A stretch of DNA of 33,379 nucleotides from Pseudobdellovibrionaceae bacterium (lineage in GTDB: Bacteria; Bdellovibrionota; Bdellovibrionia; Bdellovibrionales; Bdellovibrionaceae): contig JAKFYD010000031.1 in the NCBI GenBank assembly GCA_021731025.1, forward strand, positions 1 to 33,379. Reading direction: 5' to 3'. Positions 881 through 28,457 of this stretch are shown here, piece after piece (the stretch's first letter is position 1; every line of letters begins with the position of its first letter). Under the pieces are notes generated by a model. That model was given only the letters and a program-made list of their open reading frames with translations. It was not told the origin of the DNA and did not search any database. Both the position numbers and the translations under genes were made by a program.

Positions 881-3800
881 TCAATGAGCCACTCGTCCCT
901 TAAATCTGTTTTCAAAAATCGAATATAATACTGGAAGTACAATTAAAGTCAGAATGGTCGATGATACAATTCCCCCAATCACAACCGAAGCTAAAGGTCT
1001 TTGTACCTCAGCACCTACACCTTGAGACATCATCATCGGTAGAAATCCAAATATGGCTACTAAGGCGGTCATAAGAACCGGCCGTAGTCGGATCAGCGTT
1101 CCGGTTACTACTAAGTCTTTTCCCGTATAACCTTCTAGTTTTAATTGATTGAAATAGTTAACAAGCACAACACCATTTAAAACAGCAATACCTGATAAGG
1201 CAATAAAGCCAACTCCTGCTGAAATACTAAACGGCAATCCATTGAGCATGAGACTGATGACACCACCAACTAGAGCGAAAGGCACACAGCAAAAAATCAA
1301 TGCTGTTTGTCCTACACTGCCAAAAGCCGCATAGATCATAATTAAGACAATTATGAGCGCCACGGGTGTAAGAATTAATAACCTTTGCCGTGCTTCCTGA
1401 AGATTTTTAAAGTTCCCGCCCCATTGTAGGTAATAGCCCTCGGGAATCTTAATTTTTTCTTGTACAACTTTTTGCGCCTCGTTCACGAAACTTTCGGTGT
1501 CCCTGCCTCGTAAATTTATTAATACCGCAGACCTTCGATTTGAGTCTTCACGAGAGATCGAACTGTAGGTTTCCGAAAATTTAATGTTGGATAAGGTAGA
1601 TAGTGGCGTTGTCGTATTTGACCCTATCCCTACAGGCAAATCCCTTATTGTATCAAGGTCAGATCGATCGGATTCCGAAAGCCTGACCACGATAGGGAAT
1701 TTTCTATCTCCTTCAAAGAGTTGTCCTGCCTCTTGTCCTCCAAGGGCAATTGAAATGGTATCTAAAACATCTGAGACTTTCGCTCCATACTTATGAAGAG
1801 CCGCATTTTGTGGTTCAATTCTTAAAACGGGGCTTGTTCCAGCTAAATCTTCCTCGACGTCTCCTGCACCTTTAACTTTAGAGACGACTTCTTTAATCTT
1901 TTTAGCCAAATCCATATTCATCTTAAGATCAGGTCCAAATATTTTTACAGAGACGTCAGCACGTGTTCCTTCTAAAAGTTCATTAAACCGCATTTGAATG
2001 GGCTGAGATGCTAAGTAATTCTGTCCAGGCACTTCACGTTCAAGTTTCGCAATAATAGCATTCACAAGGGATTGAAAATTATGTCTTCCATTTTCATGAC
2101 GTGGCCATTCGTCCCGATCTTTAAGCATGATGTAAGTATCAGAAATATTCACTCCCATTGGGTCTGTGGCGACTTCACTTGTTCCTATTCTTGAAAAAAC
2201 ATGTGTTACCTCGGGAAAGGCTTGAATAATTTTATCTGCCTTCATTTGAAAAGCTAAAGATTGATCCAGACTGATGTTCACAGGTCGAATCATATGAAAA
2301 GCAAATGACCCTTCGCTCAATTGAGGCAGAAATTCAGCACCACGAGTAGCAAATAAAATGACACCAATGATGACTGCCACAAGCGAAGCAATAATCGTAC
2401 CTTTTTTGTGAACGAATGTAAGGTTCAATAAAGGTTTGTAAACATTTCGAATCCACTCCATAAAACGTGGTTCTTTATCCTCGGCGTTTCCTGACAAAAT
2501 AAGTGATGCAAGCGCTGGAGCAGTCGTAAATGAAATGACCAGTGCCGAAATTACAGCAATAGCAAATGTAGCAGCCATAGGCCTGAACATTTTGCCTTCT
2601 ACGCCGACCAGGGCAAAAATAGGTAAGAATACAACGACTACGATCAGCTCACCGAATCCAGCTGCAACTCGCACTTCAACCGTTGCGTTATATACTGCCT
2701 CTTGTATTTCTTGTCGTGAAAGTCTTCTTCCAAATTTCTTTGTTTTTTCATGAATAAATCGAACACAATTATCGATCAGAATTACAGTTCCATCGACAAT
2801 AATACCAAAATCAAGAGCTCCCAAGCTCATTAAATTTCCCGATAATCCTAAAGGTTTCATAATTAAAAATGTTGCTAGTAAACTGAGAGGAATAGTAATC
2901 GCAGTAATAATCGCAGCTCGAATATTTCCAATAAGTAAAAATAAGATGATGATGACAAGCGTAGCTCCCATCAACAGGTTGTGTTCGACAGTTCCTAATG
3001 TCGCATTCACCAAATCAGAACGATTGTAGACAGTCGTAAGAACATAACCCTTGGGAAGTGTTTTTTTAATTTCATCAAATTTTTCTTGAACTCGCGTTGC
3101 AACCGTTCTGCTGTTTTCATTGACCAACATCATCACCGTGCCAAGCACTGTTTCTTGCCCGTTAAAAGTTGCCGACCCTGTTCGCAGTTCCTTTCCAAGC
3201 GCTACTGTAGCAATATCTCCAACTCTTATGATACGAAACGAATCGAGCTGTTTAATAGGAACATTTTTAATATCTTCTTCGCTGTTAAATAATCCAATTC
3301 CTTGAATCAGAAATTGCTCAGCACTTTGCGCAACGTAACCGCCACCAACATTTTTATTCGCTTTTTCTAAAGCCTCTCCAATTTCTTCAAAATGTAGTCC
3401 ATACGACACCATTTTCTTAACATCGGGTTGCACATGAAATTGCTTTTCATAACCACCGCTACTGTTGATCTCAGCAACGCCCTCGACAGTTAATAGTCTT
3501 GGCTTTACATACCAATCCTGCAGAGCCTTTACTTCCATCAATTGTCGAAGGCGTTCCTTTTGATCAGAAGAAGGTTTCTCAACGTCCAGTATGTACTGAT
3601 AAATCTCGCCGAGTCCTGTAGACACGGGTCCCAATTTTGCTTCCGCGCCCTTTGGTAATTCTGGCAAAACTCCTTGGAGTCTTTCAGAAACCACTTGTCT
3701 CGCCCGGTAAATATCTATTTCGTCTTTAAAAACGACAGTTACCTGCGATAGTCCAAAGCGAGTGATGCTTCTCACCTGTTCAACCCCAGCTATACCACGC

Positions 3801-4018
3801 ATCGAAGATTCAACTGGAAATGTAATCGTTCTTTCAATTTCCTCTGGAGCTAAGCCTTCAATCACGGTGTTAATTTGAACTTGGTTATTAGTGATATCAG
3901 GAACCGCATCGATGGGAAGATGTTGAAACGAATATATCCCACCTAAAACTAAAAGACCCGTCATGAAAAGCACAAGACTTCGATTATAGACTGAGAAGTG
4001 AATTATTTTGTTAATCAT
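881..4018 (-). CDS. czcA: CzcA-type heavy-metal RND efflux pump
   Basis: The 1045-residue product has full family length. It is a proton-driven inner-membrane transporter that moves divalent or monovalent heavy-metal ions outward through a tripartite complex. Seen features are the N-terminal membrane helix, the conserved PIDAVPDITNNQVQI block at about residues 35-49, two large periplasmic loops, twelve predicted membrane segments in two halves, and the metal/proton signature DFGIIVDGTVILIDN at residues 403-417. This corresponds to the CzcA motif with Asp402, Asp408 and Glu415, but the third acidic residue is Asp (416) here instead of Glu. AAGGA precedes the ATG. Upstream genes in the same orientation encode the adaptor-like and channel proteins. 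Metal specificity cannot be read from the sequence with confidence. Confidence 0.95.
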   Translation of the reverse strand: MINKIIHFSVYNRSLVLFMTGLLVLGGIYSFQHLPIDAVPDITNNQVQINTVIEGLAPEEIERTITFPVESSMRGIAGVEQVRSITRFGLSQVTVVFKDEIDIYRARQVVSERLQGVLPELPKGAEAKLGPVSTGLGEIYQYILDVEKPSSDQKERLRQLMEVKALQDWYVKPRLLTVEGVAEINSSGGYEKQFHVQPDVKKMVSYGLHFEEIGEALEKANKNVGGGYVAQSAEQFLIQGIGLFNSEEDIKNVPIKQLDSFRIIRVGDIATVALGKELRTGSATFNGQETVLGTVMMLVNENSRTVATRVQEKFDEIKKTLPKGYVLTTVYNRSDLVNATLGTVEHNLLMGATLVIIILFLLIGNIRAAIITAITIPLSLLATFLIMKPLGLSGNLMSLGALDFGIIVDGTVILIDNCVRFIHEKTKKFGRRLSRQEIQEAVYNATVEVRVAAGFGELIVVVVFLPIFALVGVEGKMFRPMAATFAIAVISALVISFTTAPALASLILSGNAEDKEPRFMEWIRNVYKPLLNLTFVHKKGTIIASLVAVIIGVILFATRGAEFLPQLSEGSFAFHMIRPVNISLDQSLAFQMKADKIIQAFPEVTHVFSRIGTSEVATDPMGVNISDTYIMLKDRDEWPRHENGRHNFQSLVNAIIAKLEREVPGQNYLASQPIQMRFNELLEGTRADVSVKIFGPDLKMNMDLAKKIKEVVSKVKGAGDVEEDLAGTSPVLRIEPQNAALHKYGAKVSDVLDTISIALGGQEAGQLFEGDRKFPIVVRLSESDRSDLDTIRDLPVGIGSNTTTPLSTLSNIKFSETYSSISREDSNRRSAVLINLRGRDTESFVNEAQKVVQEKIKIPEGYYLQWGGNFKNLQEARQRLLILTPVALIIVLIMIYAAFGSVGQTALIFCCVPFALVGGVISLMLNGLPFSISAGVGFIALSGIAVLNGVVLVNYFNQLKLEGYTGKDLVVTGTLIRLRPVLMTALVAIFGFLPMMMSQGVGAEVQRPLASVVIGGIVSSTILTLIVLPVLYSIFENRFKGRVAH

Positions 4019-4056
4019 GATTTTCCTTAATAGTAGGAGATCGTCGTAAAAAATTT

Positions 4057-4620
4057 TTAGTGAGAGTGTCCTTCAGGAGCGCCACCGGAGGCTGTTATCT
4101 CTGCAATTCTTAGAAATCCAATTCCGTTAATAACAATTTCATCTCCATCTTTTAAGTCAGCAGATGTAATCTTCATCGTGGTTTGTGACTTAGAAAGAAG
4201 GTTAAAATCGATCCTCTTGAAAAATCCTTCACGAACACGAAAAAGATTAACTTCTTCTTGCGAAAGCAATCTCGCGGATAATGGCAACTCCCAGGGACCT
4301 TGAGAACTTAGCTTTTGAGTTTTTATTTCAAAGTTTTTTAAAGCTTCGGGAGATAGTTTAAAACCGGATTCTTCATTAACCTCAAGAATTCCCTTTTCAG
4401 GTCCTATCTTCGAGTTTTCTTCTTCGTGATCTTCATGCCCTTCCTCCTCTACATGATCCTTAGCACCCTCTTCATGTTCATGTTCGTGTTCTTCTTTTTT
4501 TGCATGACTATCGCTTACTTGCTGAGGTTCATTCTTTATCTGCATATTGGTTGGCAATGAAGAATCCTTTGCATGGACCAATGTTGAAAATGCAATAATG
4601 GAAAACAGTATTTTTATCAC
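4057..4620 (-). CDS. Short His-rich CzcB-like periplasmic adaptor remnant or minimal adaptor
   Basis: The product is 187 residues, about half the usual length of an RND periplasmic adaptor. It has a signal peptide (residues 1-17) and a strongly acidic, histidine-rich stretch at about residues 38-70 (HEHEHEEG, GHEDHEEE), as is common in CzcB-type proteins. Next is a segment resembling the adaptor opening (LSPEALKNFEIKT). The last 45 residues resemble the adaptor membrane-proximal end (LKDGDEIVINGIGFLRIAEI) and finish in GHSH. The lipoyl/barrel-sandwich region and coiled-coil hairpin that contact the channel are absent. The GTG start overlaps the upstream channel stop (GTGA), so translation is probably coupled. 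It could be a genuine minimal adaptor or metal-binding subunit, or the product of an internal deletion. Confidence 0.75.
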   Translation of the reverse strand: MIKILFSIIAFSTLVHAKDSSLPTNMQIKNEPQQVSDSHAKKEEHEHEHEEGAKDHVEEEGHEDHEEENSKIGPEKGILEVNEESGFKLSPEALKNFEIKTQKLSSQGPWELPLSARLLSQEEVNLFRVREGFFKRIDFNLLSKSQTTMKITSADLKDGDEIVINGIGFLRIAEITASGGAPEGHSH

Positions 4621-5843
4621 TTTGCACCCGCCTTAAAATCAGCATAAGGACCCGTTAATGAAAGTCTATTGAGCATGTCATAGTTCATGACAAATCGATA
4701 TGTGGCATCGGCATAGGACGCACGCGATTGACTCAAAGAAAGAAGGGTCGTCGAAACATCGAACAAACTAATCTTAGCGCCTAGCTGAAGTTTTTGCTTG
4801 AGCGATTCGAAGCTCTGCTCTGTTAGACTTATTCGCATTTTTAGAGAAGGATAAAGACCTGCCCCTGTATTATGAGCTTGGCTGACATTGAGTATTTGTC
4901 TCTTGATCGTTTCTTCGATCCCCTTTTTTTGTAGCTCTAGTATTTTCTTTTGAGAATTAACAATCGATATCTGTTTCCCGTTAGCAAATCCCAGCCCCTG
5001 AGAAACTGGAAGGTTATCAAAAACACCACCTGCTGTTCCTCGACTCAAAGTAGGAACACCTAAAAAAGAAAACCTGATTTCTTTTTTGATTTGAGGAAGC
5101 ACCTTTAGGAAATAAGCATACTGATTGACTTCGGGCGAATTTTTAATTGCAATCTCCTCCCATTCAGTTGGATTAATAGATGGTAGCTCGCTTTCATTTG
5201 CAAGATTTACTTGTACTAAGATTAACTGCTCGCCAACTGGAAACCCCAGAGCCTGCGCTAAGGTTCTTTTTTCAAAGTCTACAAGAAGCTTCAATTGAGT
5301 AACATCTTCTACAATTTTCAAATGCTGAATTTGAATCTCACGGGAGATATCGGCGTTTTCAAATCCTATATCGGCGCGGTCTTCGGCCATTGCACGTATT
5401 TTACTTAGTTCCTGAGCATGATTTTTTAAGGAATTATAAAGCTCTTGATCCATAAGAACTTTCAAATAAAGGCTTCTTGCTGCATAAAGTTCGTTTGCTT
5501 GCAGTGCGCGATAACCTTCTCTTTCAGCTTTATAGAGAATCTCTGTTTCTTTAAGACGAAACCAATTTGCTGGAACCAAGAATGGAGCAATATCTTGAAC
5601 AACATCAAGAAGTGCTGTCGGATCAATAAATACTCGACCTACATTCCAAAGATTTAATCTTGGAAGAAGATTAAGCCTTGCTTCATCAATTGAAAGTTTG
5701 GCTTGATAAACTTTTTCGGCATTTTGCAAGACAACTAAATTTTGCTGTTTTACTTTTTGAGTGACGTCCTGAAGTGAAATTGTCTTACCTGCGTGAGAAG
5801 CCGTAGAAATAGAAATGATAATTAAAATAATTAAATGTTTCAT
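4617..5843 (-). CDS. TolC-family outer-membrane efflux channel (second copy)
   Basis: The 408-residue product has a cleavable signal peptide (residues 1-18, ending SHA) and long amphipathic helical stretches with repeated spacing, typical of the alpha-barrel of TolC-like channels. An ALGFPVG turn between the two structural halves and a second half beginning with an IKNSPEVNQY-like segment fit the outer-membrane factor family. It would form the exit duct for the RND pump. The ATG overlaps the stop of the upstream lipoprotein gene (ATGA), and its own stop overlaps the adaptor-like gene, so it is embedded in the operon. It is odd that a second channel gene lies in the same operon. Confidence 0.85.
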   Translation of the reverse strand: MKHLIILIIISISTASHAGKTISLQDVTQKVKQQNLVVLQNAEKVYQAKLSIDEARLNLLPRLNLWNVGRVFIDPTALLDVVQDIAPFLVPANWFRLKETEILYKAEREGYRALQANELYAARSLYLKVLMDQELYNSLKNHAQELSKIRAMAEDRADIGFENADISREIQIQHLKIVEDVTQLKLLVDFEKRTLAQALGFPVGEQLILVQVNLANESELPSINPTEWEEIAIKNSPEVNQYAYFLKVLPQIKKEIRFSFLGVPTLSRGTAGGVFDNLPVSQGLGFANGKQISIVNSQKKILELQKKGIEETIKRQILNVSQAHNTGAGLYPSLKMRISLTEQSFESLKQKLQLGAKISLFDVSTTLLSLSQSRASYADATYRFVMNYDMLNRLSLTGPYADFKAGAK

Positions 5844-6490
5844 TGTTCTGACACCCTTCTTAAAACCATCAAATGTGTTTTGGCAGAAAACGCTGGACGC
5901 ATTTCTACGAATATTTCATTAATAATAGTGAGTTCTTGTGAATAAACTTTTTGAACTAAATCATGACTTTTCTGAGCGACTCCTGGCTTCTCGAGCAACA
6001 AATCATCTGTTCTTCCATTTGATTCATACAAATTAATTATATAGATAGTTGAGCAACCTTCAGAAGCCGCATTAATAATGCCTGTTTCATAACTAAGTCG
6101 GACATGACCTAAACCACATTGATCAACACCAGCACCGGTCTGTGCATTTAAGGTTGTTGTTTGAACAGTAAATGTGAGATTATTCAAATCCGCAGTGATT
6201 TCTTCAAGGGTACGAGAGCGTCCTGCGTTGTAGGGTGGAAGACTTGGAATGAGCATGATCCTTTTTTTATATTCTTTAGTACCGACAATAAACTTACCTT
6301 CATAGGTTCCACTTAAGGCTGTAAAAAGCCTTTGCTGTTTAGCTAATCTAGCTTCCATCTCAGTTGCTTTTCTTCTTAAGTTTTCATTTTCGACTTCAAC
6401 TTCTCGATTTTTAACGTCTTCCAAATTACTCGAGTCTGGCTTCGCACACGCCACTAAAAACAAAGGTAACAATAAAAATATCTTTTTCAT
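5840..6490 (-). CDS. Coiled-coil outer-membrane lipoprotein of the efflux operon
   Basis: The 216-residue product has a typical lipoprotein signal (MKKIFLLLPLFLVAC; lipobox LVAC, acylated Cys at residue 15). A charged heptad-like helix spans about residues 24-56, followed by a beta-rich domain containing two cysteines that could pair. AAGGAA lies seven bases before the ATG. I do not recognise a named family. Its position between two TolC-type channel genes, with a 4-base overlap to the downstream one, suggests an accessory role in the envelope-spanning efflux machine. That is an inference from context only. Confidence 0.7.
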   Translation of the reverse strand: MKKIFLLLPLFLVACAKPDSSNLEDVKNREVEVENENLRRKATEMEARLAKQQRLFTALSGTYEGKFIVGTKEYKKRIMLIPSLPPYNAGRSRTLEEITADLNNLTFTVQTTTLNAQTGAGVDQCGLGHVRLSYETGIINAASEGCSTIYIINLYESNGRTDDLLLEKPGVAQKSHDLVQKVYSQELTIINEIFVEMRPAFSAKTHLMVLRRVSEQ

Positions 6491-6505
6491 GTTTAGATTC
6501 CTTGG

Positions 6506-7765
6506 TTAAAGTTTCTGATTTAAAAATGTTCCGTTTAAAATATAAAGTGTCCAAAGTGCCTCAAGAGCCTTTAACTCTTCTTCGTTTCGACTTTGGGTGT
6601 AGGACAGTAACTGCCGATGAGCTTCAATGATCAATGGACCTGCAATAAGACCCTGTGCAAATAATGACTCTGCCTTTTTATGCTTACTTTCGATAATTCG
6701 CCCACTGGGGGTATTTTTTAAATTCTTAACAGATACCTCATACTGTTGCGTGAGGTTCTTTAAAATGCTCTGTTGTTTATCTAGATTCCTTTTATGAACT
6801 TTCATTGCTTTTGTAGACTGGGAAGCTTTGAGAGCTCTTTCTCCTCGATTACGATTAAAGATCGGAATGGGCATGCTGATCCCCATTCCGTAAGTTTGGT
6901 ATTGAACAGAACCATCAATGTTATTATTTGCAATGAGTGAAACTTTAAATTCGGGCCAGGCTTGCGCTTTTGCTTCTGCGAGTTGCCCAACAGACAAATC
7001 AACATCAGCTTGGGACTTAAGTAGCGATGCCGATTTATTTTCAACATCTACTTTTGGAGTCTCAGGCCATTCATTTTTAAATGTTGGTAGGTTTTTCTCT
7101 ATTGCAGTTGCTGACAAACCTGTTGAGGCAGAAAGTTCACTGAGAATTTCTCTCTTCTCTTTTTGCAGATGATTTAATCTTATTTCAAATTCGCTAACTG
7201 CAAGTTGAACTAAACTCAGAGTAATTTCCTGGTCTGGGTTAAGTCGTGGCCTTGACTGATACTTATTTTTAATTGTTCTGAACCTTTGAACAGACTCCTC
7301 TGTTTTCTCGAGTTCATCATTTAATTGTGTAAGACGATAAAGCGACTTAATACCGAGAAGTGTAACCTCTTCTAACTTTCCTAAACTTTCTGCTTTAAAG
7401 GAATCACCTAGAGCCTTTCCTATGTTACGTCGAGCGGCTCTTAAACCACCGACTTCAATAGCTTGGGATATTCTTACTTCCGTTGTATTAGCAGTTCTAC
7501 CGAGGTTTTCTCCTTTAACTGATTCAAGAGAAATTTCTGGATTATTCCAAGAGCTCCCCTGCTGAGATAAGCGGTCGGAAACCTCATTGATGACATCTTC
7601 ATTTTGCACTTCTGGATGTCGTTGCTGAAGGCATTTTAATATATCATTAGTATTTTTAGGCGCAGCACAATGAGCTGCTTCTAAAGCTACTGATCTACCA
7701 TAACTAAATAGAGAAATAGCGGTAGCTGTAAGACTAAAAATAACGAATCGTGATTTAAATTTCAT
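6506..7765 (-). CDS. czcC: CzcC-type outer-membrane metal efflux channel
   Basis: The 419-residue product has a signal peptide (about residues 1-28). The first domain contains HPEVQNEDVINEVSDRL and a WNNPEISLE strand followed by a strand reading RISQAIEVGG; both are characteristic of CzcC-like outer-membrane factors. The second half repeats the pattern (WPEFKVSLIANNN, GISMPIPIFNRNRGE). It would trimerise in the outer membrane and receive metal from the RND pump. AAAGGG lies ahead of the ATG. It is the second gene of the operon, after the CzcI-like gene. CzcC, CzcA and the short adaptor together define a heavy-metal (Czc/Cus-like) system. Confidence 0.9.
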   Translation of the reverse strand: MKFKSRFVIFSLTATAISLFSYGRSVALEAAHCAAPKNTNDILKCLQQRHPEVQNEDVINEVSDRLSQQGSSWNNPEISLESVKGENLGRTANTTEVRISQAIEVGGLRAARRNIGKALGDSFKAESLGKLEEVTLLGIKSLYRLTQLNDELEKTEESVQRFRTIKNKYQSRPRLNPDQEITLSLVQLAVSEFEIRLNHLQKEKREILSELSASTGLSATAIEKNLPTFKNEWPETPKVDVENKSASLLKSQADVDLSVGQLAEAKAQAWPEFKVSLIANNNIDGSVQYQTYGMGISMPIPIFNRNRGERALKASQSTKAMKVHKRNLDKQQSILKNLTQQYEVSVKNLKNTPSGRIIESKHKKAESLFAQGLIAGPLIIEAHRQLLSYTQSRNEEELKALEALWTLYILNGTFLNQKL

Positions 7766-9642: not shown

Positions 9643-9673
9643 AATAAATCTAATTTTAATTATAACTTTCACT

Positions 9674-9689
9674 GTTCGTAACTACGAAC
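9674..9689. promoter_or_regulatory. GTTC-N8-GAAC dyad (candidate upstream activator site, copy 1)
   Basis: GTTCGTAACTACGAAC is a perfect inverted repeat (GTTCGTA/TACGAAC around AC). Its centre lies about 105 bases before the -24 element at 9786. The same 16-base layout occurs twice ahead of the transfer operon (17479-17494 and 17541-17556), and I saw no further copy in the other intergenic regions. Position and spacing fit a binding site for the sigma-54 activator encoded just downstream. Confidence 0.6.
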
Positions 9690-9785
9690 AATTTCAGTGA
9701 TTCAATTGATAGATTTAAAACTATTTGGTAGTAGATATCTCGTAATTTCAAAGAGTTATCTCAAATTTCTCCCAGTAGAATAACT

Positions 9786-9801
9786 TGGCCCTCTAGTTGC
9801 T
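9786..9801 (+). promoter_or_regulatory. Sigma-54 (-24/-12) promoter of the sensory/Pycsar operon
   Basis: TGGCCC-N5-TTGCT matches the consensus TGGCAC-N5-TTGCW at all but one base. Transcription would begin near 9811, leaving a leader of about 35 bases before the GTG at 9846. A GTTC-N8-GAAC dyad lies about 100 bases upstream. Because the first gene encodes a sigma-54 activator, positive autoregulation is likely. Confidence 0.65.
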
Positions 9802-9845: not shown

Positions 9846-11234
9846 GTGCCATTTAAAGTTTTGATTGTCGACAACCAGAAGGAAGATTTAGAAGTCACCC
9901 GCCTTGTTCTATCTGTCGATGCTGATTTCGAAATCTATATAGAGCCTGACGCCGGCAAAGCGGTCGAGCTTGTTAGAAAAAAACCGCAAGAATTTGCCAC
10001 CATTCTTTTAGACTACCATATGCCAAAAGATGGGCTAACAACGGCACAGGAAATGTTTGCGATCAATCCGCATTTACAAATTGCCATTCTTTCATGTGAT
10101 CAGACTCGCGAAGCCTTAAAAAAATCAATCCAGATTGGTGTTAAAAGTTTTATCGACAAAGATGAAGACCCCGAAGTTCTGAAAGGTGTTGTGCGCTCAC
10201 TTTGCCAAAAATGGCAGAATCGCGCTGAAGTTTTCAGCCACGCTCACGTATCCGGTGAGCAAAATGAAAAGCTTATTAATAACATTGGGCTTGTAGGCCA
10301 TTCTTCCAAGCTCGCCGAAGTAGCTAGGTTGGTAAAAAGAGCTGCAACAGTCGATTGCAGCGTCCTGATTCAAGGCGAGTCTGGAACCGGCAAGGAACTC
10401 GTTGCCAAAGCCGTTCATAATCAATCCAAGAGAAAATCTAAACCGTTTGTCGCTATTAACATTAACGCCATCGCTGAAAATCTTGCCGAGAGTGAACTCT
10501 TTGGTCATGTTCGTGGGGCATTTACCGGAGCGGATAAGGACAACCCAGGTAAAATTCTTTCAGCTCAAGGCGGAACTCTTTTTCTTGATGAAATTGGCGA
10601 CTTGAAACCTGAAATCCAAGTAAAACTCCTGCGCGTACTCCAAGAACGAAAACTTTCTCCCGTTGGAAGCAATAAAGTTTTTGAATTAGATATTCGCATA
10701 ATCACTGCAACCCATGTGAATTTAGAAAAGGCAATTCTGGACGGAAAGTTCCGCGAAGACTTATTTTATCGCCTTCATGTATTTCCAATTCAACTGCCGT
10801 CGTTACGGGAGCGGCCTGAAGATATTCAGCCGCTCATTGCACACTTCCTGAAAATCTATAAAGGCCAGGGCTGTGAAATGCTGATGAAAACAGTTCGGCT
10901 TTTAGAACGCTACGAATGGCGCGGAAATGTCAGGGAGCTAGAAAATGAGATTCAACGACTCTTATCTATGGGCATTCAAAAAGTCGAACCAGCAAACTTA
11001 AGTAAAAAAATTTTAGATGCACTCAATTTTGAATCTGACGACATCGTAAACCATCAGGACTACCAGAAAAAGCTATGGGCAATGGAACTTGAATACTTAG
11101 AACGAAATGTTCGGCTTGCTGGATCATTGCGTGAGGCTTGCCGAAGTATTTTTAAGGCTGCACCTTCTTCCATCCATACTCGCATTAATAACTTAAAAGA
11201 TCACATAACAAAAACAAATCACAAAGTGGTATAA
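9846..11234 (+). CDS. Sigma-54-dependent response regulator (NtrC family)
   Basis: The 462-residue activator uses ATP hydrolysis to open sigma-54 promoters. An N-terminal receiver (about 1-120) has Asp56 in LLDYHMP as the phosphorylation site. The AAA+ core (about 145-375) contains Walker A GESGTGKE (177-184), the GAFTGA sigma-54 contact loop (224-229), Walker B (GGTLFLDEIGD, about 242-252) and FREDLFYRLHVFPIQLPSLR with the arginine finger. A Fis-like helix-turn-helix (about 425-452) ends the protein and is somewhat divergent (GSLREACRSIF..SIHTRINNL). The start is GTG behind a G-rich ribosome-binding site. It heads a seven-gene operon that also encodes a kinase, its probable partner. Likely targets are the two sigma-54 promoters with GTTC-N8-GAAC dyads. 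Confidence 0.95.
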   Translation: MPFKVLIVDNQKEDLEVTRLVLSVDADFEIYIEPDAGKAVELVRKKPQEFATILLDYHMPKDGLTTAQEMFAINPHLQIAILSCDQTREALKKSIQIGVKSFIDKDEDPEVLKGVVRSLCQKWQNRAEVFSHAHVSGEQNEKLINNIGLVGHSSKLAEVARLVKRAATVDCSVLIQGESGTGKELVAKAVHNQSKRKSKPFVAININAIAENLAESELFGHVRGAFTGADKDNPGKILSAQGGTLFLDEIGDLKPEIQVKLLRVLQERKLSPVGSNKVFELDIRIITATHVNLEKAILDGKFREDLFYRLHVFPIQLPSLRERPEDIQPLIAHFLKIYKGQGCEMLMKTVRLLERYEWRGNVRELENEIQRLLSMGIQKVEPANLSKKILDALNFESDDIVNHQDYQKKLWAMELEYLERNVRLAGSLREACRSIFKAAPSSIHTRINNLKDHITKTNHKVV

Positions 11235-11235
11235 A

Positions 11236-11580
11236 ATGAAAAAACAATCTAAAGCACTCTTTACCTTATTGCTTCTTATCGGAGCTAGCGCTTATTCTAA
11301 AAATGGACTTATTCGACGTGAGAATCTCGATTCTCTGCACTTCGATCCAGCTACATTGAAGCAGCTCATTGACGAGAAAATTCTTTTCCCTTCGAAAATG
11401 CCATTGTTCTTTGAACTCAATGAAGAAAAAGTTGAGCAAATTCTTTTAGCGTCAAATGATCCCGAACTTTCAGAATTTCTGATTTGGCTTCGATCACTTG
11501 TTGGCGACACGACTGAAGTAAATCTGAAAAATCCTGGTGATATGACTCCTGCCAGCCAAGACATCAAGGGCTCAATATAA
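11236..11580 (+). CDS. Small exported protein of the sensory operon, function unknown
   Basis: The 114-residue product has a signal peptide (about residues 1-21, ending ASAYS). The mature part, about 90 residues, is mostly helical with leucine-rich amphipathic stretches (HFDPATLKQLIDEKILFP; EEKVEQILLASNDPELSEFL) and a polar tail. It has no cysteine and no family I recognise. It begins one base after the activator stop and precedes the solute-binding protein by 15 bases. Possible roles are a periplasmic partner of the kinase or binding protein, or a precursor of a secreted signal acted on by the YcaO protein. None of these is demonstrated. Confidence 0.75.
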   Translation: MKKQSKALFTLLLLIGASAYSKNGLIRRENLDSLHFDPATLKQLIDEKILFPSKMPLFFELNEEKVEQILLASNDPELSEFLIWLRSLVGDTTEVNLKNPGDMTPASQDIKGSI

Positions 11581-11595
11581 ATATGAGGATAAAAC

Positions 11596-13173
11596 TTGAA
11601 AAAGATAATTTCAGCAATTGTTTCCCTCTCTACAGGTGCTCTTGTCGTGAGTAAAATTAATTCAAAATCTTACATCCATACAGAACAGTATCGATATGTC
11701 ATTACCGAAACAAGTGGTCCGACGTCGCTTGATCCTCTTGATGGTGACCAAACGCAGAACCTACCTGTACAACGAATGATTTATGCTACGCCAATTGAGG
11801 TTGATGCAAAAGGATCTTTACAAAGCTTAGTTCTTGATAACTTTATTTTTGATCCAACAACAAAAACAATGACGTGGACTGTAAAGACAGGACTGAAGTT
11901 TTCAGATGGTTCGGATATTACACCTGACGATATTGCATTTGCAGTGAAACGGATGGCATTTAGCCGACCCAAATTTCCGGTCATTGATGAAATCGAAGGT
12001 GTTCAAGAATGGTCTAAAGCTAGTAATGCACTAGAAAGCTACCCTTCTGGTATCAAAATAGTTGGAAACAAAATAGAAATAAAATTCAATCATTTTGTTG
12101 AACATCCTATTTTCAGATTTTGCCTGGAGATATTTTCTATCATTCCCAAAAGTTGCGTCGATACCAAAACAAACAAAATATCTTGTGAAAAAATTCCTTT
12201 TAGTGGTCATTATAAGATAGTTAACAAGTCCGAATCGCAAATTTCTTTCGTAATGAAAGACGATTCTACTCTCGGAAACTCCGCTCCCAAGAACATTATG
12301 TTTGAATATAAACTTCCTTCTGAAGTCTTTGAAGAGGAATATATCCCTTCGGGAACCGTCATCATTCAAGGAAATGAAATTAAGTTTTCCTTAGATCAAT
12401 TGAAAAAGATAAAGCAACATCTGCAAACGAGCTATTTACCATCTGCTCGAATTGCCTTAAATATGTTAAACCCGAACATAGTTCCTTTTAAAGAAAAAAC
12501 ATGCCGATTGGTATTTGCGGAAGCATATAGAAAAGCTTTTGCAAGTCTTGCCACTGTTGATTTTAAAATTGAATCGAGCCTGTTCACAGATGTCTTGCCA
12601 GGGTACATGACGCCTTCAGAACTTTCAAAACAAGAGCTTATAAAAATATCTGAGTCAGAAAAAAATAAATGTCTTCAACAGATGAAATTGACTCCTCCTC
12701 GATGGGCCTTTGTAAAAGAAGACGCTGATTCAATTTATTCGCTTGTCGCAGAAAGGGCTTTCGAGATCTTAGGAATTCCAAAACCTAATCCCAAAGTATT
12801 TAACACTCGAAAAGAAGAAACAGATGCCTTTATCAAAGGCGACATCTCCATTTTGGGTGCAAGCACTGGTTTTTGGGCAATGGACCCTGTAGGCGATATA
12901 CAAATGCTATTAACACCGAACATGCACAAAATTCTTCAGTTCGTCAGTAATGATGAAAAGATTCAGTTATTAATAAAAAATCTCAAAGGCATTGACGAAA
13001 GGAACAGTAAAACTTCTTTCAATGTATTGAATCAGTATGTTCATGATAAAGGATTGTTCAACGTCTTTGCCCATGTCAGACGATTCTATTCAAGCAGTTC
13101 GTTAGACAATATTTCAGAACTACCGATCTCAATAACTTCTCCAGCTCCTTGGCAAGTCTTTAGGATGAAATGA
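11596..13173 (+). CDS. Oligopeptide-type extracellular solute-binding protein (SBP family 5)
   Basis: The 525-residue product matches the length and opening pattern of family-5 solute-binding proteins (OppA/DppA/PrgZ): an SLDPLDGDQTQNLPVQRMIY segment near residue 45, then KTGLKFSDGSDITPDDIAFAVKRM at about residues 96-119. An N-terminal hydrophobic stretch suggests export; no lipobox is evident. The start is TTG with GAGG eight bases upstream. Known relatives bind peptides or similar ligands in the periplasm and pass them to an ABC permease, but no permease or ATPase gene is present. The neighbouring kinase and activator suggest a ligand-sensing role instead, as for pheromone-binding proteins of some conjugative plasmids. 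The ligand is unknown. Confidence 0.85.
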   Translation: MKKIISAIVSLSTGALVVSKINSKSYIHTEQYRYVITETSGPTSLDPLDGDQTQNLPVQRMIYATPIEVDAKGSLQSLVLDNFIFDPTTKTMTWTVKTGLKFSDGSDITPDDIAFAVKRMAFSRPKFPVIDEIEGVQEWSKASNALESYPSGIKIVGNKIEIKFNHFVEHPIFRFCLEIFSIIPKSCVDTKTNKISCEKIPFSGHYKIVNKSESQISFVMKDDSTLGNSAPKNIMFEYKLPSEVFEEEYIPSGTVIIQGNEIKFSLDQLKKIKQHLQTSYLPSARIALNMLNPNIVPFKEKTCRLVFAEAYRKAFASLATVDFKIESSLFTDVLPGYMTPSELSKQELIKISESEKNKCLQQMKLTPPRWAFVKEDADSIYSLVAERAFEILGIPKPNPKVFNTRKEETDAFIKGDISILGASTGFWAMDPVGDIQMLLTPNMHKILQFVSNDEKIQLLIKNLKGIDERNSKTSFNVLNQYVHDKGLFNVFAHVRRFYSSSSLDNISELPISITSPAPWQVFRMK

Positions 13174-14084
13174 TGAATAGCAGACTCATTCTCGATTCAA
13201 TTATAGTCGAGCTTAAAAGACAAAATAAAATGCCTAAGAGGATTGATTTCTCAAAAATTGGAGATCGCTATTGGTGTGTGGTTTCTGATAATCCAACGGA
13301 TACTATTTCCGTTATAAACGAAGACATTTTTACTGGTTTCTCCAATGAAAAAGAAATTGCGCTGCTGAAGGCACTGTCAGAAAGAGCTGAGCGTCTGGCC
13401 TTTATTGAAGGTTCAAGAAATGATATTCCAAGCTGTCAAACGGAGAGATCAGATGGTTTTGCTGCAATGCCTTTGATATCTTTGAATAACTCAGTTCGGG
13501 AAAATGCTTTGAATGAGGCTATCGAAAGATTTGTGTGGTCTACATGGTGGGATGATTCTGAATCCGCATTTACAATCCGGAAAATTCATCCCGATAACAA
13601 AATTGTTCAATTAACATCTTATCTGGAAGAAGTTATAAAAACCTTAAATTTAGAATTTATTTATGTGGTCAATCCAATAATCGACCAGCTTACCACGAAA
13701 CAAGTTCAAATCTTAATCGGAAAAATAAAAGATAAAGGATATGTGACTGGTGGTGCTTGCGGCACTAAAGCGGAAACGCAGATAACTGTTTTCCGTGCAT
13801 TAGATGAGCTATATCGACATGGTTTTGCGTTCCAACGTGCAGTTCAAAAAGATATCAAGCCAAAATCATTATATGAAAAAAGGCTAATGTATTTCGCATC
13901 AGGTTTTGGGAATAGAATTGTCCAAGATCGCCTCGCCACCCGGGGAATAAAGTTAATTTTTCTGCCAGAACTACAAATAGATTCAGAAATCGAATCATCA
14001 ATTCCAGGATTTACAGTTCATCGCTGCTTTTTTGAAAATCAGCCTCCATTTATAGGTGGGGCTATGAAGAGGTTATGTCTATAA
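13170..14084 (+). CDS. YcaO-domain protein
   Basis: The 304-residue product overlaps the previous stop (TGATG), so translation is probably coupled. It shows the YcaO pattern: ALSERAER (Glu71, Glu74), ERSDGFAAMP at about 92-101, ALNEAIERFVWSTWWDD (Glu116, Glu119) and a late GGACGTKAETQITVFRALDELYRH (Glu213). Those glutamates correspond to the ATP/Mg-binding positions. YcaO enzymes phosphorylate backbone amides to make azolines, amidines or thioamides in peptides or proteins. No proline-rich C-terminal tail of the azoline-forming type is present, and no TfuA or dehydrogenase partner is nearby. The substrate may be the small exported protein two genes upstream, another peptide or a protein; this is inference. 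Confidence 0.75.
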   Translation: MMNSRLILDSIIVELKRQNKMPKRIDFSKIGDRYWCVVSDNPTDTISVINEDIFTGFSNEKEIALLKALSERAERLAFIEGSRNDIPSCQTERSDGFAAMPLISLNNSVRENALNEAIERFVWSTWWDDSESAFTIRKIHPDNKIVQLTSYLEEVIKTLNLEFIYVVNPIIDQLTTKQVQILIGKIKDKGYVTGGACGTKAETQITVFRALDELYRHGFAFQRAVQKDIKPKSLYEKRLMYFASGFGNRIVQDRLATRGIKLIFLPELQIDSEIESSIPGFTVHRCFFENQPPFIGGAMKRLCL

Positions 14085-15772
14085 AAAAAAACCACTTCTC
14101 TAGAAATTCACTCTGTCTTTTCGCAGTGATTATACTGATCAGTGGAATTTATGGAATTTGTGATTACTATCTTCAATCTATATCAAAGGAACTTACGTCC
14201 AATTGGGTACAGACAGAGGCAATTGCCATTCAAGAAGGAAATTTGCTCACGTCAATCACCAAGACACAAAGATTTTTGATTTCTTCCTCTTATATCAAAG
14301 GCGTCCGACTTGTAAAAATTGAACGTGGACAACTTCAACCAAAAATTGAATTTGGTGAGCCATTTAAATTAAGTTATCGAGACGTTTCTATTTTACCTGA
14401 AAATTTGACACAAGAACGAATTGGATTTTTGCATCAAAGGGCATTTTTAAAGATTCCACAACGCGAAGACTTCATTTTAGTTTTCGATGTTAAGTCTAAT
14501 TTTTTGAATCTTTTATTTGCAGTCAGCAGCAGTATTATTGTCATTTTAATCGTTTACCTTATTTGGTCATTGCAGCGATTGGAACAAAAGGAAGCCCAAA
14601 AGCGCGAGGCATTATTAAAGTTGGCAATTGACGATCTTCTTGAAAATGAGTCCCCATCAGCAGTTCTGGAAAAGGAAATTCCTGGCCTAGTGAAATGGTG
14701 GAAAGTTAAAAAAAGCGAATTAGAACGCACCAGGGCTATTTCCGCAGAACAGCAAAACAAAATCTTATTAGGCGAAATGGCAACAAGAACAGTTCATGAT
14801 ATAAAAGGTGCTCTAAGAAACATTCGGACTATTGTTACCATATGTAAAGCCATTGAGCCTTCTCACAAAGATATTATAGAAAAGTCCTTAGAAAAAGTGA
14901 AAAAGATTTCTCAAGGACTCCTTGAAAGCACTAGATCTGTCCATTCAGATGAGCAAAACAAACAGGTGCGTTTGAATGCTAATTTACAATTAAACTCAAT
15001 TATCGAAAGTAAAAAAATTCAATATGGATCTTCAGTTTATCTTGAAATGCAACCTAGCGTCTCGCCTGCCGTAATAATATCAGATCCCGTTCAATTTGAA
15101 CGCTCAATATCCAATTTAATTGATAACGCGATTGAGGCTTCACCCATTAATAATCTTATCCGTATCATCGTAGTTAACGACAATAATTCTGTTGAAATTA
15201 TAATTCAGGACTCAGGAAAAGGTATATCGCCAGAAAATATTCGGAAAATTGGCACGAAGGGTTTTACACACGGTAAAATCGGAGGGACCGGAATAGGCGT
15301 TTTTTATGCCAAAAAATTCGTTGAAGAGCTTGGAGGACAATTTAGTGTCGAATCGAAACTCGGAAAGGGAACCAAGGTCCGTTTGTCGTTTCGAAATGCT
15401 ATCGGGCGGATTTTCCTACGACCAAATGAACACCTATTACTATTAGAAGATCAGAATTACATCCGACAAGCTGCTAAACTCAAATTGGATGGATTAGGAA
15501 ACCAAAAACCACAATATCAAATCTTTTCAACAACAAGCGAACTAGAAACCTGGCTGTCTACCAGTAACGCAACTTTCAAGTTATATTCTGATCACTTTTT
15601 AGAGAACGAGAGTGAAACTGGAATTCAACTTATAAAGCGACTTGGTATTGCAGATAGATCTGTCCTTTTCACTTCTGCATTCGATGATCCTACCATTACT
15701 CAAGCTGCGTCTGAAATTGGCATGGAGGTTATAAGTAAAGATGAATTTTTTAATGCACAAATTATAACTTAA
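14075..15772 (+). CDS. Membrane hybrid histidine kinase with C-terminal receiver
   Basis: The 565-residue product has a membrane helix near 11-29, a periplasmic sensor region of about 110 residues, a second helix near 145-166, and a coiled linker to the dimerisation helix with phosphoacceptor His241 in RTVHDIKGALRNI. The ATPase domain has an N box (SNLIDNAIEAS) and G boxes (DSGKGIS, GGTGIGVFYAKKF). A C-terminal receiver (about 448-565) keeps the acidic pair Glu458-Asp459, a likely phospho-Asp506, Thr533-Ser534 and Lys555, though it is divergent. It overlaps the YcaO stop by 10 bases. The periplasmic loop is well placed to read the solute-binding protein, and the activator encoded first in the operon is the probable phosphorylation target. 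Confidence 0.9.
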   Translation: MSIKKNHFSRNSLCLFAVIILISGIYGICDYYLQSISKELTSNWVQTEAIAIQEGNLLTSITKTQRFLISSSYIKGVRLVKIERGQLQPKIEFGEPFKLSYRDVSILPENLTQERIGFLHQRAFLKIPQREDFILVFDVKSNFLNLLFAVSSSIIVILIVYLIWSLQRLEQKEAQKREALLKLAIDDLLENESPSAVLEKEIPGLVKWWKVKKSELERTRAISAEQQNKILLGEMATRTVHDIKGALRNIRTIVTICKAIEPSHKDIIEKSLEKVKKISQGLLESTRSVHSDEQNKQVRLNANLQLNSIIESKKIQYGSSVYLEMQPSVSPAVIISDPVQFERSISNLIDNAIEASPINNLIRIIVVNDNNSVEIIIQDSGKGISPENIRKIGTKGFTHGKIGGTGIGVFYAKKFVEELGGQFSVESKLGKGTKVRLSFRNAIGRIFLRPNEHLLLLEDQNYIRQAAKLKLDGLGNQKPQYQIFSTTSELETWLSTSNATFKLYSDHFLENESETGIQLIKRLGIADRSVLFTSAFDDPTITQAASEIGMEVISKDEFFNAQIIT

Positions 15773-15787
15773 ATTTTAAGGAACAAT

Positions 15788-16690
15788 ATGATCGAACGAT
15801 ATCAAGGCAAAGTTGGTGAAAAGCTCCTCAAGGAAGCATTGGCCGAACAAAAATTAATTAACGGAGACAACACCATAGTTAATTTTCTAATTTCTCATGG
15901 AGTTTTAATTGAAGCAATACCCAATGAAACTATCATAGCTCAAGATGCTGAAGATACAGATATCTACTTTATATTAGCAGGATCAATTGAGGTTTTAATA
16001 AATAAACGGTCGGTTGCAAAAAGAGTCTCTGGCGAACATGTTGGAGAAATGGCTCTTATTCATCCAACTGGAACTCGCAGTGCTGCAATCATCTCTAAAG
16101 AAAAGTCAGTTCTATACAAAGTATCAGAAGAATATTTTTCTGAAATCGCCGAAAATAATCCTGTTCTGTGGCGAAGGTTAGCAGCTGAGTTAGTAAAGCG
16201 CATACGAGAAAGGTCAAAATATATTTCCGAGCCTAATGACTTACCAAAAATTTTCATTGGATCTTCATCTGAATCTTTCAATAAAGCCGAAGAACTAAAA
16301 AAAACATTAGAATGTTCTGAAGTACATGTTGCGCATTGGAAAGATGGAATTTTTAAAGCTTCAACTTCAACACTAAATAGCCTTCTCGAAACCGCTAATA
16401 GTTATGACTTCGCAATTCTAATATTGCATCCCGACGACATGACTGAGAGTAGAGGCAACGAAATCGCTTCCCCTCGTGATAATGTTATTTTTGAACTCGG
16501 CTTATTTTTGGGTTCGTTAACACCTGAAAGAGTATTCATTCTGAGACCAGGCAGCAAGGAACTTAAAATTCCTTCTGATCTTTTAGGAATTACCTGCCTA
16601 TCATACCAGCTCAATGAAATAAACGATAGCGACTTAGAAAAATCAGCTAAATATATAAAAAATGAAATTGAAAAATTAAAGGTCAAGTAA
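15788..16690 (+). CDS. pycTIR: Pycsar effector: cyclic-nucleotide-binding domain fused to TIR domain
   Basis: The 300-residue product has an N-terminal cyclic-nucleotide-binding domain (about 30-140) with the phosphate-binding cassette GEHVGEMALIHPTGTRSAA. A TIR-like domain (about 150-290) begins PKIFIGSSSES and contains RDNVIFELGLFLG, with Glu236 the likely catalytic glutamate of a NADase. In Pycsar systems, cUMP or cCMP made on phage infection binds such effectors, and the TIR domain depletes NAD+ to abort infection. The cyclase gene follows with a one-base overlap (TAATG). AAGGAA precedes the ATG. It lies only 15 bases after the kinase gene, so it appears to belong to the same operon. Confidence 0.92.
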   Translation: MIERYQGKVGEKLLKEALAEQKLINGDNTIVNFLISHGVLIEAIPNETIIAQDAEDTDIYFILAGSIEVLINKRSVAKRVSGEHVGEMALIHPTGTRSAAIISKEKSVLYKVSEEYFSEIAENNPVLWRRLAAELVKRIRERSKYISEPNDLPKIFIGSSSESFNKAEELKKTLECSEVHVAHWKDGIFKASTSTLNSLLETANSYDFAILILHPDDMTESRGNEIASPRDNVIFELGLFLGSLTPERVFILRPGSKELKIPSDLLGITCLSYQLNEINDSDLEKSAKYIKNEIEKLKVK

Positions 16691-17385
16691 TGAGTTTAGG
16701 CGACGATTTAAGAAAAGAAGTAAGTTCAATATTTAAAGATCAATGGACTGTCAGGGATGGAAAACAAGTACCAAAGCCGGAAGACATCGCATTAAGTGGA
16801 AATGATGGAATTAAGTTGGATGCAGTTGTCTTGTATGCAGATATTGTCGAATCCACACAACTAGTAGAATCAGAAAAACAACCCTTTTCAGCGGAAATCT
16901 ATAAAACGTTCTTAGTAGGTGCATGCCGTATCATCCGAGAACAAAACGGATATATCACTGCATTTGATGGTGATCGGGTAATGGCTGTTTTTATCGAAGA
17001 CTACAAGAACTCAAATGCATCTATCTGTGCATTAAAAATTAATCATGTCGTAAAAAAAATAATTAATGAGGAATTACTAAAAGTTTATCCTCAAGCCTCA
17101 TATCGCCTTAAACATGTGGTGGGCGTGGATTCAAGCGATATTCTTGTTGCTCGAACTGGGATTAAAGGATCGAATGATATAGTTTGGGTCGGAAAAGCTG
17201 CCAACAATGCAGCAAAACTCTGCGCGTATAGAGATGATGTTATATCTTCTGTTATATCTGAAAAAGTTTATAATAAATTATCTGATGAAGCTAAGTTAAG
17301 CTCCCCTGACAAGTGTTCGATGTGGGAATCCAGAAAAATTGATGGCAAAATAGTGTATACTTCAAATTGGACCTGGACAGTTTAG
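16690..17385 (+). CDS. pycC: Pycsar pyrimidine cyclase (class III nucleotide cyclase)
   Basis: The 231-residue product is a soluble cyclase domain. It shows the two metal-binding aspartates (Asp51 in LYADIVEST and Asp95 in FDGDRVMAVF) and the distinctive Pycsar-type segments KHVVGVDSSD and ARTGIKGSND followed by VWVGKAANNAAKL. PycC enzymes convert UTP or CTP to cUMP or cCMP in response to phage. Which nucleotide is made cannot be decided from the sequence. The gene overlaps the effector's stop by one base, the standard two-gene arrangement. It is the last gene of the operon that begins at the sigma-54 regulator. Confidence 0.92.
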   Translation: MSLGDDLRKEVSSIFKDQWTVRDGKQVPKPEDIALSGNDGIKLDAVVLYADIVESTQLVESEKQPFSAEIYKTFLVGACRIIREQNGYITAFDGDRVMAVFIEDYKNSNASICALKINHVVKKIINEELLKVYPQASYRLKHVVGVDSSDILVARTGIKGSNDIVWVGKAANNAAKLCAYRDDVISSVISEKVYNKLSDEAKLSSPDKCSMWESRKIDGKIVYTSNWTWTV

Positions 17386-17475: not shown

Positions 17476-17497
17476 TGTGTTCGGAAATAAGAACACA
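17476..17497. promoter_or_regulatory. GTTC-N8-GAAC dyad (candidate upstream activator site, copy 2)
   Basis: Seven-base perfect arms (TGTGTTC and GAACACA) flank an 8-base centre. Its centre is about 155 bases before the -24 element at 17642, and about 62 bases (nearly six helical turns) from copy 3, so both sites would face the same side of the helix. Confidence 0.55.
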
Positions 17498-17537: not shown

Positions 17538-17559
17538 TTTGTTCGCATCTATGAACAAA
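17538..17559. promoter_or_regulatory. GTTC-N8-GAAC dyad (candidate upstream activator site, copy 3)
   Basis: Seven-base perfect arms (TTTGTTC and GAACAAA) flank an 8-base centre; the core is GTTCGCATCTATGAAC. Its centre is about 94 bases before the -24 element, close to the roughly 105-base spacing at the copy ahead of the regulator gene. Confidence 0.6.
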
Positions 17560-17641: not shown

Positions 17642-17657
17642 TGGCACTGTCGTTGAA
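17642..17657 (+). promoter_or_regulatory. Sigma-54 (-24/-12) promoter of the conjugation operon
   Basis: TGGCAC-N5-TTGAA has a perfect -24 hexamer preceded by C and a TTG -12 core at the exact spacing. Transcription would start near 17668, about 46 bases before the first gene. The two dyads upstream complete a typical enhancer-dependent promoter. Confidence 0.7.
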
Positions 17658-28229: not shown

Positions 28230-28457
28230 ATGGCGAAATTGAAATCAATGGAAGACCAAAAGTCTTTCTTGTTCTTTGAAAATTTAGAGTGGATGAGTTC
28301 TGAAGAAGCAGCCCGATATCTGAGACGCTCGGTTGGGCAAATCCGAAATATGGTGTATCGTGGTCAAATCAAATCTCGAAAATTCAACAGTAGGTTGTAT
28401 TTTCGAAAAAACGATCTTGAACGAGCTATTGAATTCTCACTTAAAGGAGGATTCTAG
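28230..28457 (+). CDS. xis: Excisionase-like helix-turn-helix protein
   Basis: The 75-residue product starts at the ATG at 28230, six bases after GAGG; a start further upstream at 28212 is weaker. WMSSEEAARYLRRSVGQIRNMV followed by RLYFRKNDLERAIEF matches the MerR-like winged helix-turn-helix of excisionases. Such proteins bend attachment-site DNA to direct excision. Its stop overlaps the integrase start (TAGTG). Confidence 0.8.
   Translation: MAKLKSMEDQKSFLFFENLEWMSSEEAARYLRRSVGQIRNMVYRGQIKSRKFNSRLYFRKNDLERAIEFSLKGGF

Follow-up and report, generated by a model that had tools for sequence, protein, structure and literature searches.

In Gram-positive bacteria, conjugation can be under the control of peptide pheromones. 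In the enterococcal conjugative plasmids of the pCF10 type, the PrgZ/TraC receptors are family-5 peptide-binding proteins tied to this control. We know of no peptide pheromone that controls conjugation in Gram-negative bacteria, nor of a signalling role for any YcaO enzyme. The module described here joins a solute-binding protein of family 5 (SBP), a protein with a YcaO fold, a small exported protein (SMALL), a hybrid histidine kinase and a sigma-54-dependent response regulator (RR54). It lies on an integrative conjugative element (ICE) in a Pseudobdellovibrionaceae bacterium (assembly GCA_021731025.1; genome of 3.49 Mb), and the stretch analysed, called the window, is contig JAKFYD010000031.1, positions 1 to 33,379. 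We propose that the module senses a peptide and switches on transfer of the element.

All genes of the module are on the plus strand. RR54 (9846-11234) has receiver, AAA and C-terminal helix-turn-helix domains (PF00158, E = 3e-68; PF00072, E = 1e-11). One base past its stop codon starts SMALL (11236-11580), encoding a candidate peptide precursor of 114 aa, followed by the SBP gene (11596-13173; PF00496, E = 7e-10), the gene of the predicted YcaO-fold enzyme of 304 aa (13170-14084) and the hybrid kinase gene (14075-15772). A Pycsar pair, PycTIR (15788-16690) and PycC (16690-17385), continues the series, giving one co-directional run (9846-17385) of abutting or overlapping genes. An initial annotation of this DNA had described SMALL, SBP, YcaO and kinase as one operon under a sigma-54 activator. 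Each of these genes was found, and their co-oriented, abutting or overlapping arrangement behind RR54 agrees with the single-operon layout. It had overlooked the kinase receiver, the continuation into the Pycsar genes and the sites common to the module and transfer promoters.

Pfam identified the conjugation genes between 17714 and 29611 (plus strand): TrbC/VirB2, VirB3-like, VirB4, VirB10/TrbI, an FtsK/SpoIIIE-type ATPase, Replic_Relax (a match below the Pfam cut-off) and a tyrosine integrase (28457-29611). The window thus combines a type IV secretion system (T4SS) with genes for a coupling-type ATPase, a relaxase-like protein and an integrase, and lies on an ICE. The order of the transfer genes is kept in many relatives. 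Neither a flanking direct repeat marking attachment sites nor a tRNA was found in the window, and the contig may contain only one end of the element.

Predicted regulatory sites connect the module to the transfer genes. A sigma-54 -24/-12-like promoter (TGGCCCTCTAGTTGCT, 9786-9801, plus strand) stands about 45 bp before RR54 and another (TGGCACTGTCGTTGAA, 17642-17657, plus strand) about 56 bp before the first transfer open reading frame (ORF). Each has one mismatch to the sigma-54 consensus, and they are the only two such sites in the window. Exact TGTTC-N8-GAACA palindromes occur only three times in the window, all on the plus strand and ending 84-146 bp upstream of the two promoters. One (TGTTCGTAACTACGAACA, 9673-9690) precedes the module operon and is a probable upstream activating sequence of RR54, and the other two, predicted to act likewise, precede the transfer operon at 17478-17495 and 17540-17557. 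Genome-wide, the exact pattern was matched 11 times, compared with 3 for a control pattern. The related locus L025 keeps both sigma-54-like promoter sites at corresponding positions and has a one-mismatch site at the same distance as the palindrome at 17540-17557. The palindrome also recurs upstream of RR54, at a distance of 171-184 bp in L025 (where it has one mismatch), L026, L033 and L034, and nearer the called RR54 start, itself uncertain, in L093 and L094. This is the layout of an enhancer-binding regulator, predicted to bind upstream of both operons and to drive its own as well as that for transfer.

The same gene set was sought in other genomes, selecting loci by YcaO similarity alone and then reading their neighbourhoods. 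Among the 56 loci with full flanks (at least 2.6 kb on each side), an adjacent SBP-type gene was found in 55, a kinase in 55 and both in 54, and the set recurs in dozens of genomes. A chance gene neighbourhood was dismissed on these counts. RR54 was present in 31 of the 56 and T4SS genes lay within the stretch fetched in 20. RR54 accompanied 20 of the 21 T4SS-linked loci, the exception (L039) ending at a contig edge; L028 and L029 have modules of identical protein sequence. Taking the VirB4 genes of the family instead, 29 of 58 had such a YcaO gene within 35 kb, against a mean of 2.8 and a maximum of 9 in 2000 trials of random placement. T4SS linkage occurs in three distant YcaO clades and two gene orders, namely in the clade of the window, in a clade of shorter YcaO proteins (about 265-290 aa, although some are longer) and in a third, more canonical one ordered YcaO-SMALL-SBP-kinase-RR54. 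A core-clade module is also present in the sequenced isolate Bdellovibrio sp. qaytius (CP025734, near 2,488,725-2,491,143), with no T4SS genes seen close to it. A scan of 84,980 species, which used a 10-row alignment subset and has low sensitivity for distant relatives, returned 22 loci in records nearly all named as Bdellovibrionota groups. No relatives were found in viral contigs or on plasmids. A contig from a metagenome-assembled genome titled Streptomyces griseus (L118; CALQIT020000077.1) bears a Bdellovibrionota module, with its match position as in G020:C77, which belongs to the family of the window; the label is probably wrong.

Control of the element's transfer by the module is well supported, and we consider it highly probable. 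The initial annotation had proposed a Gram-negative signalling module that triggers transfer, a proposal strengthened by T4SS adjacency in three YcaO clades and by the shared sites as far as transfer is concerned. It had also suggested that the signal may report on neighbours, hosts or prey. The genome also carries a second module of another clade (L124; G000:C71:2500-13673), ordered RR54-SMALL-SBP-YcaO-kinase and with the SMALL tail PNVICVGSQ, and one cell may thus host two non-identical sensors. Three further VirB4 loci of the same T4SS type were observed in this genome (L148, L149 and L150; G000:C25, C16 and C76), with no YcaO module seen in the stretches fetched.

The sensor genes evolve together and apart from the transfer machinery. 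Pairwise distances of YcaO and SBP correlated at 0.88 over 61 loci and at 0.90 over the 20 loci with VirB4, and those of SBP and kinase at 0.73. Correlations with VirB4 were 0.37 for YcaO and 0.25 for SBP. L028 and L092 share 68% in VirB4 and carry modules of different clades (16% and 14%). Between the window and L025, identity was 86% for VirB4 and 83% for RR54, compared with 61% for SMALL, 66% for SBP and 59% for YcaO. L036 and L037 gave 97% for VirB4 and 93% for RR54, compared with 83% for SBP and 72% for YcaO. In a further ICE (L145; G027:C5:70000-89900), with a VirB4 75% identical to that of the window, RR54 and kinase are retained and an exported 380-aa protein without Pfam match replaces SMALL, SBP and YcaO. 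The sensor genes thus diverge faster, move between ICE backbones and are replaced in L145, indicating a swappable input to a conserved output. By analogy with pherotypes, the faster divergence of SMALL, SBP and YcaO suggests element-specific signals.

The YcaO-fold protein scored 20.0 bits against PF02624, under the Pfam cut-off of 25.7 (E = 5e-4), and a PF02624 search of the whole genome gave no match at E <= 0.001. An AlphaFold model built from 19 sequences reached a predicted local distance difference test (pLDDT) score of 91.5, and its top 14 structural matches were YcaO enzymes without exception, led by McbD, a microcin B17 synthesis enzyme (Z 19.6, spanning 264 residues), the M. kandleri YcaO (18.6), LynD (17.8) and MJ1094 (16.9). 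In line with this, a profile from 30 diverse relatives matched seven PDB sequences, each a YcaO. Residues E71, E74, R75, E116, E119, R120 and E213 are invariant across these 30 relatives, at 22% mean identity. The motif regions align with TruD, MJ1094, McbD and MusD and conserve the ExxER-type motifs, whose residues we take to bind ATP and magnesium. YcaO membership was kept because the Pfam threshold is database-set and is outweighed by the fold; a false annotation, as the weak PF02624 score might suggest, was dismissed on the fold and profile evidence. The protein belongs to the YcaO superfamily, its modelled fold being clear despite the weak sequence match, and peptide modification is its predicted activity. 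The only divergent-type YcaO proteins among the loci were two of 447-449 aa (L133 and L135). No conserved partner of ribosomally synthesised and post-translationally modified peptides (RiPPs), oxidase, peptidase or exporter was seen in the gene maps, with profiles for RiPP recognition elements and peptidases run on part of the loci. In L073 (7265-8764), a locus without SBP, a nitroreductase-family gene begins 6 bp after YcaO and may encode an azoline oxidase; such a gene was seen beside YcaO in this locus alone.

The SBP scored 39.1 bits against PF00496, above the cut-off of 32.4. Its AlphaFold model (pLDDT 88) had AapF (Z 29.4), OppA (28.5) and PrgZ (26.5) as nearest solved structures, indicating a protein of the OppA/PrgZ type, although Z differences of such size leave the identity of the ligand undecided. 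Five of the six SBPs missed by our own profile matched PF00496, one of them weakly, and that of L137 had no match. As the initial annotation had noted, neither a permease nor an ATPase gene that would serve the SBP is present in the window, so these linked parts of an ABC importer are lacking. That annotation had also allowed that a permease partner elsewhere would make the SBP a plain transporter. Sixteen PF00528 permeases are encoded elsewhere in the genome, on other contigs, and are compatible with such a partner, whereas coordinate comparison placed none near a module among the matches listed for this genome and 14 further ones. A plain transporter was dismissed for want of a linked permease among these matches. 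Close SBP relatives in L144 and L147 lack a signal sequence and an adjacent YcaO or small gene and are apparently cytoplasmic; downstream of that in L144 lies a gene for a protein of 484 aa that has Cys-rich motifs and matches no Pfam family. Absence of YcaO coincides with loss of the SMALL tail in few loci (L144, L147 and L156), and we do not claim this as a rule.

The kinase has two hydrophobic, putatively transmembrane segments around a loop of about 110 residues (by eye) and a HATPase domain (PF02518, E = 2e-20). Across 11 relatives H241, D459, D506 and K555 are invariant, T533 is near-invariant and positions in the loop are conserved. Pfam gave no match for a C-terminal receiver; because D459, D506 and K555 are invariant and T533 nearly so, we assign one and class the protein as a hybrid kinase. 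An SBP gene beside a periplasmic-loop kinase and a cognate regulator, here a predicted pairing, is the layout of an SBP-dependent two-component system.

SMALL has an N-terminal hydrophobic signal and belongs to no Pfam family. In five pairwise comparisons its dN/dS was 0.08-0.22, which indicates purifying selection and a genuine gene. Where SMALL was found, it stands immediately 5' of SBP in either gene order. YcaO cyclodehydratases modify Ser, Thr and Cys residues, and the C-terminal tail of SMALL (GDMTPASQDIKGSI, 11536-11577, plus strand), with its [ST]QD motif, is what we propose as the target of YcaO and as the signal. Small exported proteins with tails bearing Ser, Thr or Cys occur at most loci. 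Core-clade members show little conservation in their body, and [ST]Q[DE] is found near the C-terminus in 19 of 19 proteins. Tails of the shorter-YcaO clade have xIC in all seven aligned (LLSICPDAGA, MMSICADGSN, PNVICVGSQ, DSSICY), most T4SS-linked members of the canonical clade have P[ST]C (GEPSCVSM, EPSCWTAPY, AQPSCIE, NPTCWTK), and another clade has ASGNW. Across 46 small proteins, the combined share of Ser, Thr and Cys is 23% in the last 14 residues compared with 11% in the body, with a p of 2e-14 that overstates the significance since related proteins were counted as independent; Cys alone rises from 0.4% in the body to 3.0% in the tail. The SMALL protein of L113 (Silvanigrellales), read after the motif had been defined, has 60 aa, nearly no body, and ends in NGTQDRP. 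At L101 (8914-9692), two genes for small exported proteins stand in tandem, their products ending in KSSGKCEGI and KTTGRCETI. One product also has STAKC in its interior and so carries two tail-like motifs (STAKC and TTGRC), a makeup that resembles multi-core precursors. The clade-specific Ser/Thr/Cys motifs make SMALL a likely substrate of YcaO, and they lend indirect support to the YcaO-modified peptide of the initial annotation.

In the mechanism that we propose, YcaO would modify Ser, Thr or Cys in the SMALL tail before export, perhaps to an azoline or by another backbone change. SMALL would then be exported to the periplasm, as its signal sequence suggests, and its tail, released or still attached, would be bound by the SBP. 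The loaded SBP would act on the periplasmic loop of the kinase instead of delivering its ligand to a permease. Judging from the domains, phosphate would pass from the kinase to its own receiver and on to RR54, which would bind the TGTTC-N8-GAACA palindromes and fire both sigma-54 promoters, that of its own operon, giving positive feedback, and that of the transfer operon. This mechanism builds on the genes, the modelled folds, the sites, their recurrence and linkage, the tail motifs, co-divergence and module swapping. On sequence grounds, these data favour a self-encoded peptide as the signal. We give about an even chance to the full reading, in which SBP and kinase detect an exported, YcaO-modified self-peptide that triggers transfer. 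The wider proposal, that YcaO-modified, Sec-exported peptides are element-specific Gram-negative pheromones by which conjugative elements in predators time their transfer, detected by an SBP without transporter and a hybrid kinase, and that chromosomal copies of the module serve other outputs, is possible but more tentative.

Several points weigh against this mechanism. The ligand, its modification and export, contact between SBP and kinase, phosphotransfer and DNA binding are all steps that we infer. We saw no peptidase and no outer-membrane exporter, nor TfuA or an E1-like partner, and neither an exporter nor an outer-membrane protein recurs as a constant neighbour, so release of the peptide and its passage into or out of cells are explained by none of the linked genes. 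Many modules have no nearby T4SS and often no RR54, and transfer control is thus not their sole role. In the core clade taken alone, tail Ser and Thr amount to 15% versus 12% in the body, which is not significant (p = 0.16). With a single fixed position in the motif of this clade, [ST]QD could serve for binding rather than mark a site of modification. Signal sequences were called by eye, and a SMALL ORF was not found in every locus. In the window, 19 sites fall within two mismatches of the sigma-54 consensus, a mild excess over shuffled sequence (13.6) that does not lift the class clearly above chance. The layout of palindromes and promoters was not found in L028, L032, L036, L037 or L041, where other sites may serve.

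The strongest rival explanation is that SBP and kinase sense a peptide or small molecule of external origin, be it prey, host or medium, with transfer as the output and with YcaO maturing SMALL as an accessory, for instance for docking of the SBP on the kinase. YcaO proteins also modify McrA and ribosomal protein S12. Pairs of SBP and kinase for external ligands are known (CBP-ChiS of Vibrio), AapF, the structure nearest to our SBP, was crystallised with the signalling molecule HEHEAA, and the SMALL body in the shorter-YcaO clade is conserved enough to be structured. An accessory protein is, however, hard to match with the core clade, where the body is the most variable part and is nearly gone in L113, yet the tail motif persists. 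The Ser/Thr/Cys motif moreover varies by YcaO clade and the tandem tail-like repeats of L101 resemble precursor peptides. We regard an outside ligand with accessory SMALL as unlikely, though more probable than the other alternatives.

The same tails, some of which contain Cys, could instead belong to a YcaO-modified antimicrobial or metal-binding peptide, with lantibiotic-like autoinduction through the kinase or methanobactin-like uptake, and with the transfer linkage reflecting co-regulation. YcaO enzymes make such products, McbD being the top structural match here, and methanobactin systems employ a comparable binding protein. However, no exporter, immunity gene or TonB receptor is a constant neighbour, no permease lay near a module among the matches listed, a nitroreductase follows YcaO in L073 only, and a Sec-type signal is unusual for the precursor of such a peptide; we find this explanation improbable. 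The YcaO-like protein might also be a non-enzymatic, ATP-binding cytoplasmic part of the sensor complex, with SMALL as a separate periplasmic part. At 304 aa it is short against about 360-400 aa for solved standalone YcaO proteins, its Pfam score is weak and it has no linked substrate-recognition partner, but the motif Glu and Arg residues stay invariant in 30 sequences of such low identity and the core clade conserves its C-terminus (NQPPF...RLCL), leaving a non-enzyme quite improbable. That the SBP is an ordinary nutrient binder served by an unlinked Opp/Dpp permease, its neighbours merely regulating it, could draw on the 16 permease genes elsewhere in the genome. We hold it to be very improbable, as none lies by a module among the matches listed in the 15 genomes, and as divergence of the SBP tracks that of YcaO (r = 0.88) and of the kinase (r = 0.73) and the SBP travels with the module between ICE backbones.

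The window also contains possible cargo. The pair downstream of the kinase has the features of a Pycsar defence system, with PADLOC identifying PycTIR (E = 1e-91) and PycC (E = 1e-89) and Pfam a cNMP-binding domain and CAP12/Pycsar TIR. It starts 15 bp after the kinase in the same gene run, and defence could thus be co-expressed with the transfer switch. The slot is variable, being occupied by other genes in L025, L026, L032, L036 and L037; in L025 it holds DUF2971/PDC-S31 and two more ORFs. On the minus strand, positions 881-7765 hold an operon for efflux of the resistance-nodulation-division (RND) type (AcrB/AcrD/AcrF family, E = 1e-278), which also encodes two outer-membrane efflux proteins. 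It is possibly ICE cargo, and homologues of some of its parts lie near modules in L092 and L093. A YafQ-like toxin with a helix-turn-helix antitoxin is found downstream of the integrase (30264-30816).

No description of a gene set joining YcaO with a histidine kinase and a solute-binding protein was found in the open-access literature, and the remark of the initial annotation that no described system has this exact gene set holds for that literature. On ICEs, the Bdellovibrio Tiberius genome paper mentions ICE-type transposases. If our reading is true, the module provides a Gram-negative conjugation pheromone and a signalling role for YcaO in one gene set, and confirmation of the peptide step would make it a new signalling class. 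If transfer control alone holds, a widespread ICE family still has in it a regulatory module not described before. The module extends through the phylum of predatory bacteria and their relatives, offers natural variants and ready-made promoter read-outs, and makes testable how a predator-borne ICE senses that transfer pays off. Candidate YcaO substrates of this kind could escape RiPP mining because the precursors resemble small exported proteins.

The known systems each share part of this arrangement. Microcin B17, the thiazole/oxazole-modified microcins (TOMMs) and the ItfB amidine peptide, all YcaO RiPPs, have in common with it the YcaO fold and a nearby gene for a small protein with a Ser/Thr/Cys tail, but our module shows no E1-like protein, TfuA, dedicated exporter or peptidase, and has a Sec-type signal on the precursor and a two-component and conjugation output. 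Methanobactin is likewise a modified peptide read or imported through a periplasmic binding protein of similar type; its MbnBC enzymes and copper uptake by a TonB receptor are not linked here. In CBP-ChiS and other SBP-dependent kinases a periplasmic SBP acts on the periplasmic domain of a hybrid kinase, which is the step proposed for our module. In CBP-ChiS, the ligand is an oligosaccharide, CBP also takes part in uptake, and there is neither YcaO nor a small exported protein. The PrgZ/TraC receptors match in binding-protein family (PrgZ, Z 26.5) and in the tie to conjugation, whereas our module is Gram-negative, has no linked Opp permease and includes a YcaO enzyme. The Opp import to a cytoplasmic PrgX-type repressor that characterises PrgZ-type control was not found, the linked regulator being RR54. 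In place of the cytoplasmic peptide-binding repressor of pCF10 stand a kinase and a sigma-54 regulator, and the candidate peptide is the C-terminal tail of a protein where that of pCF10 is a fragment of a lipoprotein signal peptide. Conjugation control gated by a peptide or an SBP is thus the nearest known kind, with the peptide function of the module predicted from its genes.

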